Source of the DNA: Actinomycetaceae bacterium | GTDB taxonomy: Bacteria; Actinomycetota; Actinomycetes; Actinomycetales; Actinomycetaceae | DNA length: 64,000 bases | Reading direction: 5' to 3' | Assembly: GCA_028724265.1 (NCBI GenBank) | Contig: JAQYDG010000005.1 | Location: forward strand, 248,001 to 312,000 | Shown here: positions 48,491 to 57,092 of the stretch, piece by piece | How the letters are laid out: each line of letters opens with the position of its first letter | How positions within the stretch are numbered: position 1 is the stretch's first letter | Position numbers and translations under genes: made by a program | Notes under the pieces: model-generated | Told to the model about the DNA's origin: nothing | The model's input: only the letters and a program-made list of their open reading frames with translations | Database searches by the model: none

Positions 48491-50578
48491 GTGATCGAAC
48501 GAGTTGATTCTCCATTCCGCGTCATTTCTCCGTATACGCCCTCAGGTGACCAGCCAGCCGCGATCGAGCAGCTTGCCGAGCGAATTAACGCAGGCGAAAA
48601 AGACATCGTGCTGATGGGTGCGACGGGTACCGGCAAATCAGCCACAGCTGCATGGCTTATTGAAAAGATCCAGCGTCCGACCCTTATTCTTGAACCGAAT
48701 AAGACGCTCGCCGCGCAGATGGCGGCCGAATTCCGGCAGCTGATGCCCGAGAACGCGGTGGAGTATTTTGTGTCCTACTACGACTACTATCAGCCGGAAG
48801 CGTACGTCCCACAGACGGATACGTATATCGAAAAGGATTCTGCGATCAATTCTGAGGTGGAGCGTCTACGTCACTCAGCCACAAATTCTTTGCTGACCCG
48901 GCGCGATACCGTGGTCATTTCGTCTGTGTCGTGTATTTACGGGCTGGGTACGCCTGAGGAATATGTCGGCAAAATGGTACAGCTTCACGTGGGCGACCAC
49001 ATTGAACGCGATCAACTGCTCCGCCAGTTCGTCAGCATGCAGTATTCCCGCAATGACATCGCGTTTACGCGCGGCACATTTCGTGTTCGCGGCGATACAG
49101 TCGATATCATCCCCATGTACGAAGAATTGGCAATCCGCATCGAATTTTTCGGTGACGAGGTGGATTCGCTTTCTTTGCTGCATCCTCTGACGGGCGATGT
49201 TCTCACTCAGGTGACGCAGGCTCATATTTTTCCTGCCTCGCACTTCGTGGCGAGCAAAGAGAGGATGGATAAGGCGGTTCAGGCGATTCGTGTCGAGCTG
49301 ACTCATCAGCTCGACACTCTGAGGAAACAGAATAAACTGCTGGAAGCTCAGCGACTGGAAATGCGTACCACGTACGATCTGGAAATGATCGAGAACACCG
49401 GGTACTGCTCCGGAATCGAAAACTATTCACGGCATATTGATGGGCGTGCAGCAGGTACACCGCCGCATACTCTGTTGGATTACTTTCCCGATGATTTTCT
49501 TCTGATCATCGATGAATCTCATGTGACGGTTCCGCAAGTAGGTGGAATGGCAGAGGGCGATCTTGCCCGTAAGAGGACGCTTGTGGAATATGGTTTTCGC
49601 CTTCCGTCCGCCCTGGATAACCGTCCCCTCACATTCAGCGAGTTTGAGGATCACATCGGCCAAACGGTGTATCTTTCCGCCACGCCCGGGCCGTATGAGT
49701 TGGAACGAGTCGATTCCGTGGTTGAACAGATTATTCGTCCGACGGGGCTGGTGGATCCCAAGATCGTCGTCAAGCCAACACAAGGGCAAATCGACGACCT
49801 CATGGAAGAGGTTCGAGTGCGCACCGAACGCGATGAACGCGTGCTCGTGACAACCTTGACGAAGAAAATGGCGGAGGAGCTGACTGACTACCTCTCGCAG
49901 CGTGGTGTCCGTGTGGAGTATCTGCATTCTGATGTGGACACGATTCGGCGCGTCGAGTTGTTGCGGGAGCTGCGGTTAGGAAAATTCGATGTGCTCGTCG
50001 GTATTAACCTGCTTCGTGAAGGTCTCGACCTCCCCGAGGTGTCGCTTGTTGCCATTTTGGACGCCGATAAGCAAGGATTCCTGCGTTCTACCACGGCTCT
50101 GATTCAGACGATTGGGCGTGCAGCCCGCAACGTCAGCGGAGAGGTGCATATGTACGCTGATACCATTACGCCCAATATGCAAGCCGCGATCGACGAGACG
50201 AATCGACGCCGCGAAATTCAGATTGCGTATAACACCGAGCACGGAATTAATCCTCAGCCTCTGCGTAAGAAGATCGCCGATGTCACCGATATGCTAGCGA
50301 GGGAAGATGCTGACACAGATACACTGGCGGGTCTGCACAAGTATGGAGCCGATGGCATGATTCGCGGCAAGCAGAAGCGAGGCGTATCGACGCGTAAGAA
50401 CGGCGGCGTGACGAATGCCCCTGTGACGGTGAATGAGTTGGCCGATCAGATCGATCAACTGACGCAGGCGATGCACGCGGCAGCTCATCAGCTTCAGTTT
50501 GAGCTTGCAGCTCGTTATCGAGATGAGGTTGCAGATTTGAAGTCTGAGCTGCGCAGCGCTCAGAAGGCGCTGGCTTAA
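48491..50578 (+). CDS. uvrB: UvrB, excinuclease ABC subunit B
   Basis: 695 aa. Walker [10 protein letters not shown] (42-50), the hairpin region [20 protein letters not shown], helicase motifs and a C-terminal UVR domain ([22 protein letters not shown]). UvrB loads onto damaged DNA with UvrA and then recruits UvrC. GTG start with no Shine-Dalgarno sequence; TAGCCT at 48478-48483 lies 7 nt upstream, so it may be leaderless. No LexA box of the imuA' or uvrA quality is seen before it. Confidence 0.97.
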
Positions 50579-50685
50579 AGCAGGCGTGGCGGCGCGTCGT
50601 GTCGTATTGTGCACGGTGAACTTGTGTAGCTATGAGCTTGTGCACGTTGACCAAGCCAGGAGGGCTCATCGGCTGCTGTTACCGA

Positions 50686-50691
50686 TAAACT
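50686..50691 (+). promoter_or_regulatory. -10 element for the terC riboswitch transcript
   Basis: TAAACT lies 6 nt before the first base of the predicted riboswitch P1 helix (50697), so transcription would start right at P1. I cannot fix the -35. Confidence 0.55.
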
Positions 50692-50696
50692 GTGTG

Positions 50697-50785
50697 TAGT
50701 TCAGGGGGAGTACTCCAAGAATTCTGGCTCGTCATCACGGCTTATGCCCGGACCGGAACCCATGCGGTGGAGGAGACTTTGGCTA
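50697..50785 (+). ncRNA. yybP-ykoY (manganese) riboswitch upstream of terC
   Basis: The leader has GGGGGAGTA at 50704-50712, CTGGCTCGTCA in the middle and GGAGGAGACTTTGGC at the 3' end; these match the conserved bulge and loop sequences of the yybP-ykoY class. TAGTTCA (50697-50703) and TTGGCTA (50779-50785) form P1 with G-U pairs and one mismatch. CCGGAA (50753-50758) can pair with TTCCGG (50790-50795) next to the GGAGG of terC, a plausible switch in ribosome-site access. The class binds Mn2+ and often controls TerC-family and other Mn exporters. Confidence 0.85.
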
Positions 50786-50802
50786 ATGATTCCGGAGGTT
50801 TT

Positions 50803-51846
50803 ATGTTTTCTTGTATGAGTACGCCGTTCCTGCCGCTGGCTGCTAGTTCGCAAGCTCAAGCCATGGCTGTGCACCCGATGGAGTGGGTTGCGCTCGCAAT
50901 TCTCGTCGTCGGCTTGGTGATGATGGATCTGTTCGGTCATGCCCGCAAACCCCATGAGCCCACGATGAAGGAATCCATTATATGGCTCGTGTTTTATGTG
51001 GCTCTCGCCGTTGCTTTCGGTGTTTACGTGATCTTCAAGCACTCAAGTGAGTTTTCCGTGGAGTTTTTCTCTGCGTATTTCACGGAGTATTCGCTCTCCA
51101 TCGATAACATCTTTATCTTCATTATCATCATTGCCTCGTTTATGGTGCCTCGTGCTTTTCAACAGAAAGTGCTGCTCTATGGCATCGTGATTGCCCTCGT
51201 CCTGCGTTTGATTTTCATCTTGCTGGGAACCACTCTGCTTGAACACTTCAGTTGGGTTTTCTTTATTTTTGGGGCTTTTCTGCTGTGGACAGCGGTCAGC
51301 CAGATCCGTTCTGGGATGCATCAGGATGACGCTGAAGACCACGAGGAATACAAGCCAAATGCTCTGGTGCGCCTCTCGAAGCGACTGTTCAACGTCACCG
51401 AAGGCTTTGTGGGCGACAAACTCGTGGTGCGCCGCAAGAGCACAACATATATCACACCGATGCTGTTGTGCATCATTTCAATTGGCTCAGCTGACCTGAT
51501 GTTCGCGTTGGATTCTATTCCGGCATCGTTCGGTTTGACGACGCAGCCACTCATCATTTTTGCTGCTAACGCTTTCGCCCTCCTGGGATTGCGTCAGCTG
51601 TTCTTTCTCGTTGACGGGTTGCTTGAAAAGCTGGTGTTCCTCAACTTCGGGCTAGGCATTATTCTTGGGTTTATTGGATTGAAGCTGCTTGTAGAAGCTT
51701 CACACGGCCAAGGGTGGCTTCTTGGTCTGCCTGAGGTACCTCCTCTGGCATCGTTGGGCATTATTTTGGCTGTTCTCGTTATCACCTTCGTGAGCTCCAT
51801 GTGGTATGCGAAAAAGCATCCCACCTCGGCTGCCCACGATGAGTAA
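50803..51846 (+). CDS. TerC-family membrane protein, probable manganese exporter
   Basis: 347 aa with about 8-9 membrane helices. The family signature SLSIDNIFIFIIIIASF and the second half IGSADLMFALDSIPASFG with two acidic metal-site motifs are typical of TerC/Alx. Members are implicated in Mn2+ efflux, which agrees with the Mn riboswitch upstream. GGAGG lies just before ATG 50803; the longer frame from 50692 runs through the riboswitch and is rejected. An ATG at 50815 is a possible second choice. Confidence 0.92.
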   Translation: MFSCMSTPFLPLAASSQAQAMAVHPMEWVALAILVVGLVMMDLFGHARKPHEPTMKESIIWLVFYVALAVAFGVYVIFKHSSEFSVEFFSAYFTEYSLSIDNIFIFIIIIASFMVPRAFQQKVLLYGIVIALVLRLIFILLGTTLLEHFSWVFFIFGAFLLWTAVSQIRSGMHQDDAEDHEEYKPNALVRLSKRLFNVTEGFVGDKLVVRRKSTTYITPMLLCIISIGSADLMFALDSIPASFGLTTQPLIIFAANAFALLGLRQLFFLVDGLLEKLVFLNFGLGIILGFIGLKLLVEASHGQGWLLGLPEVPPLASLGIILAVLVITFVSSMWYAKKHPTSAAHDE

Positions 51847-52098
51847 CGCTGCGCCGCGTAACCCTGACCACCTTTGACGTGGGCGCACGACGAACTGTCT
51901 GTGCCGATACCGAGGCAGTCCGCATTCGGCTTATGGGGTACACATCTATTTGGTGGCGGCGGGTACACGGCGTACATGTTGGGTACACCGTGTACATGGT
52001 GTGCGCGCGGGGGGGGGTTCACAAAGCCCGATCAGCACCGCGGAATAGTGTGATATTTCTTCCTCTGAACAGGTGTTCGAATTCGATACAATGCTTGG
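51847..52098. other. 252-bp terC-uvrA gap with GGGTACAC repeats and a G9 tract
   Basis: Three GGGTACAC copies occur between 51930 and 51990; two of them form a 20-bp imperfect direct repeat (51961-51980 and 51981-52000), and GTACAC-C-GTGTAC at 51983-51995 is a perfect palindrome. A run of nine G follows at 52009-52017. The uvrA SOS box and promoter occupy the last 35 bp. I see no gene here. Confidence 0.75.
52066..52080. promoter_or_regulatory. LexA (SOS) box of uvrA
   Basis: TGAAC-AGGT-GTTCG matches the actinobacterial LexA box (CGAAC-N4-GTTCG) with one outer change. It lies just upstream of TACAAT (52087-52092), the candidate -10 of uvrA, so LexA would block this promoter. Confidence 0.82.
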
Positions 52099-54990
52099 GT
52101 GAGTAACTCCATTCATGTGCATGGCGCGCGTCAGCATAATTTGAAGAATGTCACGCTCGATATTCCACGTGACGAACTCGTTGTGTTTACTGGTCTTTCA
52201 GGCTCAGGCAAATCGTCCCTCGCATTCGACACGATTTTCGCAGAAGGCCAGCGCAGATATGTGGAATCGCTGAGTTCCTACGCACGCCAATTCCTTGGCC
52301 AAATGGATAAGCCTGATGTGGACTTTATCGAAGGCCTTTCGCCTGCTGTTGCGATCGACCAGAAATCGACCAATCGAAATCCCCGCTCCACGGTAGGGAC
52401 TGTGACGGAGATTTACGACTATCTGCGGCTCCTTTTTGCGCGTGCAGGTGTGCAGTACTGCCCAGTATGTGGGGAACGGATCCAATCCCAAACAGCCGAT
52501 CAGATTGTGGACGCGATCTTGGCGATGCCTGAAGGAACCCGTTTCCAGATTCTCTCACCTGTGCTGCGCGATCGGAAGGGCGAATATCAGGATCTTTTCG
52601 AGCAATTGAGAGGTGAAGGATTCACCCGTGCGCGAGTTGACGGGGAAACCGTCCGACTTCAAGAGGCTCCACGGCTGGAAAAACAGCTGCGTCACACCAT
52701 CGACGTTGTGGTTGATCGACTCGTCATTCGTGAGGGAATTCGTGCACGCCTGACGGATTCCGTTGAGACGGCCTTGAGGCTTTCCAAAGGTCTTGCGATC
52801 GTGGAGAAGGTGGACGCAGATGCCCACGACGAGGCGCGTGAGCGCCGATTTTCGGAGACACGTGCCTGCCCAAATGGGCATCCGCTCGCGCTGGAAGAAA
52901 TTGAGCCACGCACATTTTCTTTCAATGCGCCCTACGGCGCCTGCCCTGAATGCGATGGGTTGGGCTCCTATCTTCAGGTGGATGAGGATCTTATCGTTCC
53001 GGACCCGCAGCTGACGCTCGCCGAAGGTGCGATTGCGCCATGGCGTGGTAACCACAAGTATTACGACAGGGCTCTCAAGGCACTAGGTAAAGAGCTCGGC
53101 TTTGACGTAAATACGCCGTTTAAGGATCTTCCTGCCGACGCCCAGGACGCAATCCTCCATGGGCACGACTATTCGATTACCATGCAGTTCCGCAACCGGT
53201 GGGGACGGCAGACAACGTATTCAACTGGTTTTGAAGGCGTCGTCACGTATATCAACCGGAAACACGAGGAAACTGAATCAGACTATTCAAAGTCTCGCTA
53301 TGAATCCTATATGCGGGAGGTTCCGTGTCCGGTCTGCCATGGCGCTCGTCTGAAACCGGAGGTGTTGGCGGTACGGATAGACGGACTAAATATTAACGAG
53401 GTGTGCCAGCTCTCCATCGATAAGGCGCGGGATTTTTTGCGTGATGCAAACCTAGATACGCGTCAGATTGCCATAGCCCGTCAGGTGCTCAAAGAGATCT
53501 TGGTGCGGCTCGACTTTTTGATTGACGTGGGGCTTTCCTATCTCAACCTCGCCCGTGGAGCGTCCTCGCTTTCAGGTGGGGAAGCTCAGCGTATACGGCT
53601 AGCCACACAAATCGGTTCCGGCCTTCAGGGCGTGCTCTACGTTTTGGACGAGCCGTCAATTGGGCTGCATCAACGGGATAACGCCCGACTCCTGGATACC
53701 CTGATCACGCTGCGGGATCTCGGCAACACTCTGCTCGTTGTTGAACATGATGAAGAAGCGATCCGCACTGCGGATTGGGTGGTGGACGTCGGCCCTGGCG
53801 CGGGCGAGCACGGTGGGGAAATTGTCTATTCAGGTCCATCCGCAGGCCTCGCGAGCTCTCCTCGATCGATTACGGGGCAATATCTTTCCGGGAAGCGGTT
53901 TATTCCCATACCGCCAAGAAGGAGGAAACGTGATGCACAACGGCAGATCGTCGTCAGAGGAGCACGGGAACACAATCTGAAGAACATCACAGCTAAGTTT
54001 CCTCTTGGGCTGTTCATCGCTGTGACGGGTGTGTCTGGATCTGGGAAGTCCACCCTCGTCAACCAGATCCTCTATCAGGGGCTTGCCAATGCCTTGAATG
54101 GAGCGAGGGGAGTGCCTGGGAAGCATACCTCTATCACCGGCCTGGATGGACTCGATAAAGTTGTCCATGTTGACCAAAGCCCTATAGGACGCACACCGCG
54201 ATCCAACCCTGCGACGTATACGGGCGTGTGGGACAAGATTCGTGCGCTGATGGCGCAAACTCCCGAGGCAAAAGTGCGCGGTTATGGACCGGGTCGGTTC
54301 AGCTTCAACGTCAAAGGCGGCCGCTGCGAGAATTGCCATGGCGACGGCGTGATCAAAATTGAAATGAACTTCCTGCCCGACGTCTACGTGGTCTGTGACG
54401 TCTGTGGGGGCAAACGCTACAATCGTGAAACCCTTGAGGTTCATTACAACGGGAAGAACATCTCCGACATCCTAGATATGACGGTGACGGAGGCGCGCGA
54501 ATTCTTTGGTGCACAGTCGGCAATTACTCGTTATTTGCGCACCCTTGAGCAGGTGGGGCTGGGCTACATCCGCCTCGGCCAACCTGCAACCACGCTCTCA
54601 GGCGGTGAGGCGCAGCGGGTCAAGCTTGCCAGCGAGCTGCACCGTCGATCGAGCGGACGAACCGTCTATATTCTGGACGAACCCACAACGGGACTGCATT
54701 TTGAGGATATTCGTCATCTCCTTCAGGTGCTGCATTCACTTGTTGAGAAGGGCAACACAGTGATCGTGATTGAACACAATCTGGACGTGATCAAAACGGC
54801 TGACTGGATCGTTGACCTCGGGCCAGATGGTGGGGACGCTGGTGGTCAGATCGTTGCCCAAGGGACTCCGGAGCACGTGGCCAAGGTATCTGAGTCATTT
54901 ACCGGCCAGTATTTGGCCCCCATTCTTGCTAAGGGGAATCCAGCCGAAGCAACGGAGGATCAAACGCTGCTCACAATCGAGGATCTATGA
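52099..54990 (+). CDS. uvrA: UvrA, excinuclease ABC subunit A
   Basis: 963 aa. Two ABC ATPase modules ([14 protein letters not shown] and [12 protein letters not shown]), signatures [12 protein letters not shown] and [12 protein letters not shown], and zinc-binding cysteines ([22 protein letters not shown] with CDVCGG). UvrA finds damage and loads UvrB. GTG start 6 nt after TACAAT with no Shine-Dalgarno sequence, so it is probably leaderless; an SOS box overlaps this promoter. The stop overlaps the uvrC ATG (ATGA), so uvrA-uvrC are coupled. Confidence 0.97.
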
Positions 54991-57092
54991 CGAATCCAGC
55001 TGATTACAGGCCAGAAAAGGGAGCACTTCCGACGGATCCTGGAGTTTATCGTTTCCTCGATTCCGAAGGGAAAGTGCTCTACGTCGGCAAGGCCAAAAAC
55101 CTGCGTAACCGGGTATCGCACTACTTTCGGGACGAAACGAAGATCATTCGGCGAATTCGCCAAATGCTGCATATGGCGTCAAAAGTGGAGTGGGTTGTTG
55201 TCGGTTCGGAGATTGAGGCCCTGACGCTTGAATTCGCGTGGATCAACGAGTTCGAGCCTCCTTTCAACGTCGTGTTTCGTGACGATAAGAGCTATCCCTA
55301 CCTGGCTGTCTCAGTGGGGGAGGATGTTCCCCGTGTGTGGATCACGCGAGGAAAGCACCGTAAAGGAGTTCGCTATTTCGGACCGTATACCAAAGTATGG
55401 GCGATTAAGGAAACCCTGGAGCAATTGCGCACTGCGTTCCCCGTCCGTACCTGTACTGCCGGCGTCTATGCGGATGCGCAGAGGTCCCAGCGTCCTTGCC
55501 TGCTTGGCTATATAGGCAAGTGCTCAGCACCGTGCGTCGGCCGTATTACTCACGAGGAGCATCGGGCGATGATCGATTCTCTCCTCGAGTTTATGGATGG
55601 CGATGCGTCACGCATTATTGCGAAAAAAAAGAAGGAGATGCTCGCCGCGTCTCAGGAAGAACGGTACGAAGATGCAGCAAAGCTGCGCGATGAGATTTCT
55701 GCACTCACCACGATTAATGAACGCAACGTCGTGGCCTTCGAATCGGATGTGAATGCCGACATTTTCGGTCTCGAAGCCGACGAAATCGAGGCGTCTGTCC
55801 AAGTGTTTTATGTGCGTGGAGGCAGAATCCGCGGCCAGCGCGGATGGATTAGTGAGGAAGTCGCAGGAATGAACAGCGCGCAGATCCTCACTCAGCTGCT
55901 GATGCAGGTGTACGGCGACTCATCCTACGACGATGCGCGCGAGCTGCTTGGGCACCGGGAGGAATCCACCTCCATTGACGATAGACGGCATGTACCGGTG
56001 ACTGCGATTCCTTCTGAAATTTGGCTCCCCACACTCCCGGAAAATGTTGACGAGATTGAACAGTGGATTTCCCAACGCCGAGGCGGCGCCGTCCACATCA
56101 AATCCCCCGAACGCGGAGCGAAGGCACAACTGACGGATACGGTTCACAAAAATGCTGTGCAGGCGCTTGAGCGCCACAAACTCGCGCGGGTCAACGACCT
56201 CACGGTTCGATCGCAGGCTTTGGAAGAGCTGCAGGAACAACTTGAGCTTCCTCGCGCACCGCTGCGTATCGAGTGCTACGACATCTCCCATATGCAGGGC
56301 AAACAGCAGGTTGCGTCCATGGTGGTCTTTGAAGATGGCGCGCCAAAGAAATCCGATTACCGTCATTTCATTATTCGCGGTCCGAACGGCGAAGGCGGAA
56401 TAGATGATACTGCGGCAATGGACGAAGTGTTGCATCGCAGGCTCTCACGTTTGACGCAGGGGGCACATGCGTCGGATGCCGGAGCGGAAGAGGACGATGC
56501 TTATCGTGGCCTCGTGGAGCGTTCGACATCGGCTGATCGGCTAGCTGAAGAATACGATGCGCCGGATCCCGTGACGGATGAGGGAAACCATGTGGTTGAC
56601 TCGCAGGCGCGTCGCTTCGCGTATAAGCCCGATCTTCTTGTGGTGGACGGTGGCTTGCCCCAGGTCAATGCTGCACAGCGTGTAGTCGACGAGTTGCATG
56701 CGGATGTTCGCATTGTCGGCCTTGCCAAGCGTTTGGAGGAAGTGTGGATACCCGGCGAGGAGTTTCCCGTCATTTTTCCCAGGAACTCAGCCGCATTGCG
56801 GCTGTTGCAGTATGTGAGGGATGAGTCTCACCGTTTTGCGATTACCTTCCATCGCAAGCGCAGATCGCAGGCGATGACGCGTTCAGCTTTGGATAACGTT
56901 CCTGGGCTAGGGCCCGCCAAACAAAAGGCGCTGCTGAAATCCTTTGGATCACTGGCAAAAATCCGGGAGGCTTCGCCACGTGAGTTGCAAACAGTTCCCG
57001 GTATTGGCCCTGCGCTTGCAGCCGTGATTGACAAAACGCTTCATCACCGGGATGATGCAGATGCTCAGGAGGCGCCGAACTCGCTCACATAG
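54987..57092 (+). CDS. uvrC: UvrC, excinuclease ABC subunit C
   Basis: 701 aa. GIY-YIG nuclease domain at the start ([20 protein letters not shown]), UVR motif region, the RNase H-like endonuclease domain ([20 protein letters not shown] and [12 protein letters not shown]) and C-terminal helix-hairpin-helix motifs ([20 protein letters not shown]). UvrC makes both incisions. Its ATG overlaps the uvrA stop. A 49-residue acidic insert ([15 protein letters not shown] at its start) splits the endonuclease domain, a variation seen in actinobacterial UvrC. Confidence 0.96.

Follow-up and report, generated by a model that had tools for sequence, protein, structure and literature searches.

A probable manganese riboswitch of the yybP-ykoY family directly before terC in an Actinomycetaceae genome

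Is terC of this Actinomycetaceae genome governed by a metal-sensing RNA leader? A preliminary description of the locus had read a yybP-ykoY, or Mn2+, riboswitch into the gap directly before the gene. We analysed the whole surrounding stretch of 64,000 nucleotides (the window) and found that homology, covariation and gene context all support this placement well. We assign a probability of roughly 0.87 to the reading that terC is controlled by a yybP-ykoY-type Mn2+ riboswitch, which most likely works as a translational ON switch. The genes and RNA parts on which the argument draws are listed below in window coordinates.

48491-50578, plus strand: uvrB, named from a reading of its protein
224-nt gap between uvrB and terC: holds all motifs named in the preliminary description
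50686-50691, plus strand: TAAACT, a -10-like hexamer of the form TAnnnT, located 21 nt upstream of GGAGUA in L1
50697-50800, plus strand: predicted riboswitch overall, directly before terC
50697-50706, plus strand: P1 5' strand (UAGU, a bulged U, CAGGG) in the register of the covariance model
50707-50712, plus strand: L1 5' side, GGAGUA, invariant in 29 leaders
50713-50717, plus strand: P2 5' strand, CUCCA, pairing with UGGAG at 50768-50772
50722-50727, plus strand: P3.1 5' strand, UUCUGG, pairing with CCGGAA at 50753-50758
50729-50739, plus strand: L3 5' side, UCGUCAUCACG; 29 leaders all share the C, G, C and A of CGUCA
50740-50747, plus strand: P3.2 hairpin, GCUUAUGC, with covariation in 2/2 modelled pairs
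50748-50758, plus strand: L3 3' side CCGG (50748-50751) and P3.1 3' strand CCGGAA (50753-50758)
50758-50768, plus strand: P4 hairpin, ACC-CAUGC-GGU, the weakest helix (84.7% of cells paired in relatives)
50768-50776, plus strand: P2 3' strand UGGAG and L1 3' side GAGA, with AGA at 50774-50776
50777-50782, plus strand: putative switch strand CUUUGG, the P1 3' strand or, alternatively, the anti-SD strand
50792-50798, plus strand: CCGGAGG, whose CCGGAG can pair with the switch strand; ribosome site GGAGG at 50794-50798
50803-51846, plus strand: terC, 347 aa, ATG start at 50803, stop at 51846
52099-54990, plus strand: uvrA, named from a reading of its protein
54987-57092, plus strand: uvrC, named from a reading of its protein

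With this arrangement the riboswitch-terC unit, presumptively Mn-responsive, is embedded in a UvrABC repair cluster (48491-57092), between uvrB and uvrA-uvrC, and an apparent uvrB end also lies directly upstream in several relatives (for example at loci L005, L006, L010, L016 and L018). The longest in-frame terC reading frame begins at a GTG at 50692, inside the riboswitch (50692-50802). The closest TerC orthologues align from about residue 1-20 onward, and the GTG frame is a mechanical extension of terC into its leader, which could lead automatic gene callers to mark the aptamer as coding.

The signature motifs of the yybP-ykoY family (GGGGGAGTA, GGCTCGTCA and GGAGGAGACTTTGGC) are all where the preliminary description had put them. 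The covariance search that it had proposed as a check returned nothing: RF00080 ('Manganese', Rfam 15; 177 positions, gathering score 45 bits) had no match at the gathering score in the 64-kb window, none at E up to 10 on positions 50560-50900 and none across the genome. The same model found loci in 2 of 99 related genomes and in 7 of 198 genomes of the class, in neither set over the cut-off (0/99 and 0/198), and it found no match in the control genome of Corynebacterium glutamicum, the terC leader of which received an RF00080 call of 49.1 bits under an earlier Rfam release (PMC3890552). Because the model misses the leaders of nearly all relatives too, its failure here was not counted against the riboswitch; RF00080 of Rfam 15 is a poor instrument for this group, and the lack of a match to it says little in this class. 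Below threshold, Rfam gave a single match, to Streptomyces-metK at 16.9 bits (E 0.45; gathering score 44.2), which draws on the -10 region and was set aside as chance.

We gathered terC leaders from Actinomycetaceae and neighbours, aligned 24 of them, excluding the window, annotated the P1-P4 helices manually and built from this alignment a calibrated covariance model, R1. R1 matched the window at 50693-50786 on the plus strand with 59.6 bits and E 6.6e-15, as the sole match in 64 kb; against the whole 1.76-Mb assembly the same single match was returned (E 1.8e-13), with no second. This match refutes the idea that the motifs came together by chance in an ordinary intergenic leader, to which we leave a negligible probability: the silence of Rfam and a fold no better than shuffled would agree with chance, but a model built without the window placed its sole match in 1.76 Mb exactly before terC. 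The single-sequence thermodynamic fold (z = +0.99; 173 of 200 shuffles fold at least equally well) is uninformative; the evidence for the element is comparative.

The reach of R1 extended to 80 of the 99 related genomes and 117 of the 198 genomes of the class. Seven of the loci that RF00080 detects in relatives were recovered by R1 too, each in the same place, with E-values from 2e-10 to 7e-4 (L096, 2e-10; L095, 2e-9; L002, 2e-9; L099, 5e-9; L097, 2e-7; L094, 3e-5; L001, 7e-4), so the two models describe one family. Since the terC-leader model finds 117 of 198 genomes where RF00080 finds 7, manganese regulation is under-annotated in the class; evidence of the current RF00080 model overlooking most members there is a useful by-product of the analysis.

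Across 42 matches, the covariation score was 0.481, against 0.186 in shuffled and <0.09 in slid controls, 90.6% of cells held standard pairs and 16 of 22 pairs showed changes on both sides; the alignment was fitted to the structure and leans toward it, but the slid controls, together with the width of the gap between the scores, make the helices secure nonetheless. Both-sided changes were seen across relatives in 4 of the 5 pairs of P2, and covariation in 5/5 modelled pairs of P3.1. In the window, an extended P1 is formed by UAGU-bulge-CAGGG paired with CUUUG-GCUA.

The conserved loops L1 (GGAGUA / AGA) and L3 (CGUCA ... CCGG) are both present, with core positions invariant in 29 leaders. In the Lactococcus lactis riboswitch the Mn site comprises U39, C40, A41, U44 and C45, and selectivity for Mn comes from N7 of A41 (PMC9190785). 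With residue roles taken from that work, A50734 corresponds to the Mn2+-sensing A41, and the window counterparts of the site residues are U 50732, C 50733, A 50734 and C 50738; the position of U44, a phosphate contact, is occupied by an A at 50737.

The window scores low for the family, at 59.6 bits in a range reaching 102.6, and departs from it in several G-U pairs and a bulge in P1, in a C-A mismatch closing P3.1 beside L3 and in AGACU where AGACC is nearly universal. The low score, the weak P1, the C-A pair and the AGACU form could mark a decayed relic that has drifted too far for Mn2+ binding and left terC with a constitutive leader. We consider this very improbable, as every core position of L1 and L3 found invariant in 29 leaders is kept in the window, and both alternative pairings survive in its changed P1 strands. 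Judged by these comparisons of sequence, the element truly belongs to the Mn2+ riboswitch family, if in a somewhat diverged form, and stands before the most usual actinobacterial target of that family.

As the preliminary description had noticed, P1 begins shortly after a -10-like TAAACT, its first base (50697) lying about 5 nt past the hexamer. Of 36 leaders, 31 carry a TAnnnT hexamer beginning 17-32 nt ahead of GGAGUA; in control windows of equal width taken upstream, the hexamer occurs in 5.9%. We saw no good -35 at the usual spacing from TAAACT, and a generic promoter scan did not find this promoter, which is without a -35; because that scan misses TAAACT, the promoter claim rests on conservation of position. 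Since the position of TAnnnT is conserved, transcription probably starts at about 50697, the first base of P1.

A search for terminator-like sites from 50400 to the terC start found none, the only one returned by the scan being inside terC (51459-51474). Translational ON control of terC is most likely, because there is no terminator-like site in the leader. In L. lactis the family member switches transcription (PMC11087558), and by analogy the aptamer here might act on transcription, through termination or Rho access, and not on ribosome binding; given the position of the only terminator-like site, we hold this to be improbable, though sequence does not decide on Rho dependence.

The conserved switch, as far as the leaders can be read, is the pairing of the P1 3' strand with the ribosome site. 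The strand that closes P1 on its 3' side (typically CCUCCGGU) is able to pair with the ribosome site (ACCGGAGG) over 5-10 bp in 31 of 35 relatives, a set from which locus L004 is left out; of 36 leaders tested, 27 have an anti-SD helix that is significant against shuffled downstream sequence (p < 0.05). In the window the corresponding helix, between CUUUGG (50777-50782) and CCGGAG (50792-50797), comprises 6 bp with a loop of 9 and is on its own borderline by the same comparison (p 0.056). At the fifth position of the switch, the bases in the window are C (P1 5' strand), G (P1 3' strand) and C (SD side), against G, C and G in most relatives; such a change is expected if a single strand must serve both helices, and it carries modest weight since the register of the alignment may be off by one base. 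The aptamer has a predicted energy of -25.0 kcal/mol and its core combined with the anti-SD helix one of -24.8 kcal/mol, nearly equal values to which any contribution of Mn2+ would still be added.

The preliminary description had proposed a different platform, a pairing of CCGGAA (50753-50758) with TTCCGG (50790-50795) covering part of the terC ribosome site. In the corresponding switch, the Mn-free RNA would form this helix at the expense of P3.1, with which it is mutually exclusive, and partly mask the SD, while Mn2+ would keep P3.1 closed. The pairing itself is possible and occurs in the unconstrained minimum-energy fold (-31.8 against -25.0 kcal/mol for the aptamer), but these energies omit Mn2+ and tertiary docking. 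The partial cover also holds, but extends to just two bases of the five-base SD core GGAGG (50794-50798). As a conserved platform the helix fails: CCGGAA is the 3' strand of P3.1, which usually differs in relatives (CCGAGG and the like), whereas the helix between the P1 3' strand and the SD is kept in 31 of 35. We therefore judge it unlikely to be the main switch, although in this species it may contribute to the Mn-free state.

In the mechanism favoured here, built on P1 3' strand exchange, the direction of the response, its translational level, the ligand and the function of TerC in this organism are what we infer. With enough Mn2+, the aptamer (P1, L1/P2, P3.1/L3/P3.2 and P4) would dock L1 on L3 around Mn2+ at A50734, and docking would lock the P1 3' strand CUUUGG (50777-50782) into P1 and leave the terC ribosome site free. 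TerC would then be made and Mn2+ exported or handed to exported enzymes. When Mn2+ is absent, P1 would open and CUUUGG would pair with CCGGAG (50792-50797), masking the ribosome site.

The genes that follow the element in relatives bear on its ligand. In the 99 related genomes, a TerC gene lies directly downstream and on the same strand in 89 of 93 R1 matches, at a median distance of 33 nt; the other four precede a GDT1/UPF0016 gene (GDT1/MneA-type, PF01169; locus L002), a P-type cation ATPase gene (L090) and the genes at L089 and L091 described below. In a class-wide sample of 20 R1 matches, TerC stands behind 17 and GDT1 behind one, and the RF00080-type locus L001 precedes a CDF transporter. 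The main known families of Mn efflux proteins are CDF, MntP, UPF0016 and P-type ATPases (PMC13274385), and the element is thus found in the 5' leaders of genes for Mn efflux or handling. That the genes behind the switch belong to these types is the strongest argument in the analysis for Mn2+, which is accordingly the presumed ligand of the window RNA. GGGGAGTAGC-type members at two loci, L094 and L095, both on the minus strand downstream of about 1483, stand before membrane proteins that by eye resemble cation exchangers.

The protein encoded by terC belongs to the TerC family (Pfam PF03741, E 6.1e-47, 160.1 bits against a gathering score of 27.8); a search by sequence for a relative of solved structure found none. 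The genome encodes one TerC, one CDF protein and one DtxR/MntR-type regulator; MntP and GDT1 were sought and neither was found, and a genome-wide search for a second switch or another riboswitch-controlled Mn gene was likewise negative. The TerC proteins of Bacillus subtilis have a minor Mn efflux activity and mainly serve the metalation of exported enzymes (PMC10550928). Judged from relatives, TerC is plausibly a Mn exporter here, or it may, as in those relatives, act in the metalation of exported enzymes. Either way, terC of this genome gains a firm, testable assignment to manganese homeostasis.

Mn-responsive terC leaders are already known, and the window adds a further, essentially ordinary member. 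Like other RF00080 riboswitches, such as that of L. lactis yoaB, it combines a GGAGUA L1 and a CGUCA L3 bearing the Mn-sensing adenosine in a P1-P4 layout, with P1 as the probable switch helix and a manganese-handling target gene. It differs in its first P2 pairs (GGGGAGUACUCC, against GGGGAGUAGC in the printed RF00080 consensus), in probably acting by SD masking where yoaB uses a terminator, and in escaping the Rfam 15 model. The terC (cg2157) leader of C. glutamicum is likewise an actinobacterial terC leader with a transcript that starts from the 5' end of the aptamer, the RNA-seq 5' end mapping 6 nt inside the predicted start (PMC3890552, Table 2); that organism belongs to another family of the same class, and its leader was found with the older Rfam model (49.1 bits; PMC3890552). 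In B. subtilis, the ykoY/meeY leader is a Mn-responsive riboswitch upstream of a TerC-family gene, but the metalation of exported enzymes by MeeY and MeeF, along with minor Mn efflux, has been shown there (PMC10550928), whereas for TerC here either role is a prediction. In Vibrio parahaemolyticus, yybP-ykoY elements precede both mneA and terC, and both genes are induced by Mn (PMC13274385). Their target types, UPF0016/GDT1 and TerC, recur in the class studied here, although the Vibrio system is proteobacterial and its mechanism was left open between termination and translation (PMC13274385).

A broader reading would make the actinobacterial terC leaders a distinct, widespread translational Mn2+ subclass, with one strand serving P1 and anti-SD pairing, largely missed by the present Rfam model; the rare targets of this subclass other than transporters (one of the PGPGW family, one lacking any Pfam domain) would then count as new Mn-responsive genes. 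We offer this tentatively and regard it as doubtful in its entirety. The PGPGW-family member is a membrane protein encoded behind a weaker match at L091 (100-700; 25 bits, E 0.002). The gene behind a 46.5-bit riboswitch of this type at L089 (100-330) encodes an alanine/glycine-rich protein of 283 aa with no Pfam match and is a candidate addition to the Mn-responsive genes. In the relatives G009, G037 and G041, terC occurs in tandem copies with a riboswitch at the first copy only, which suggests joint control of the copies by one riboswitch.
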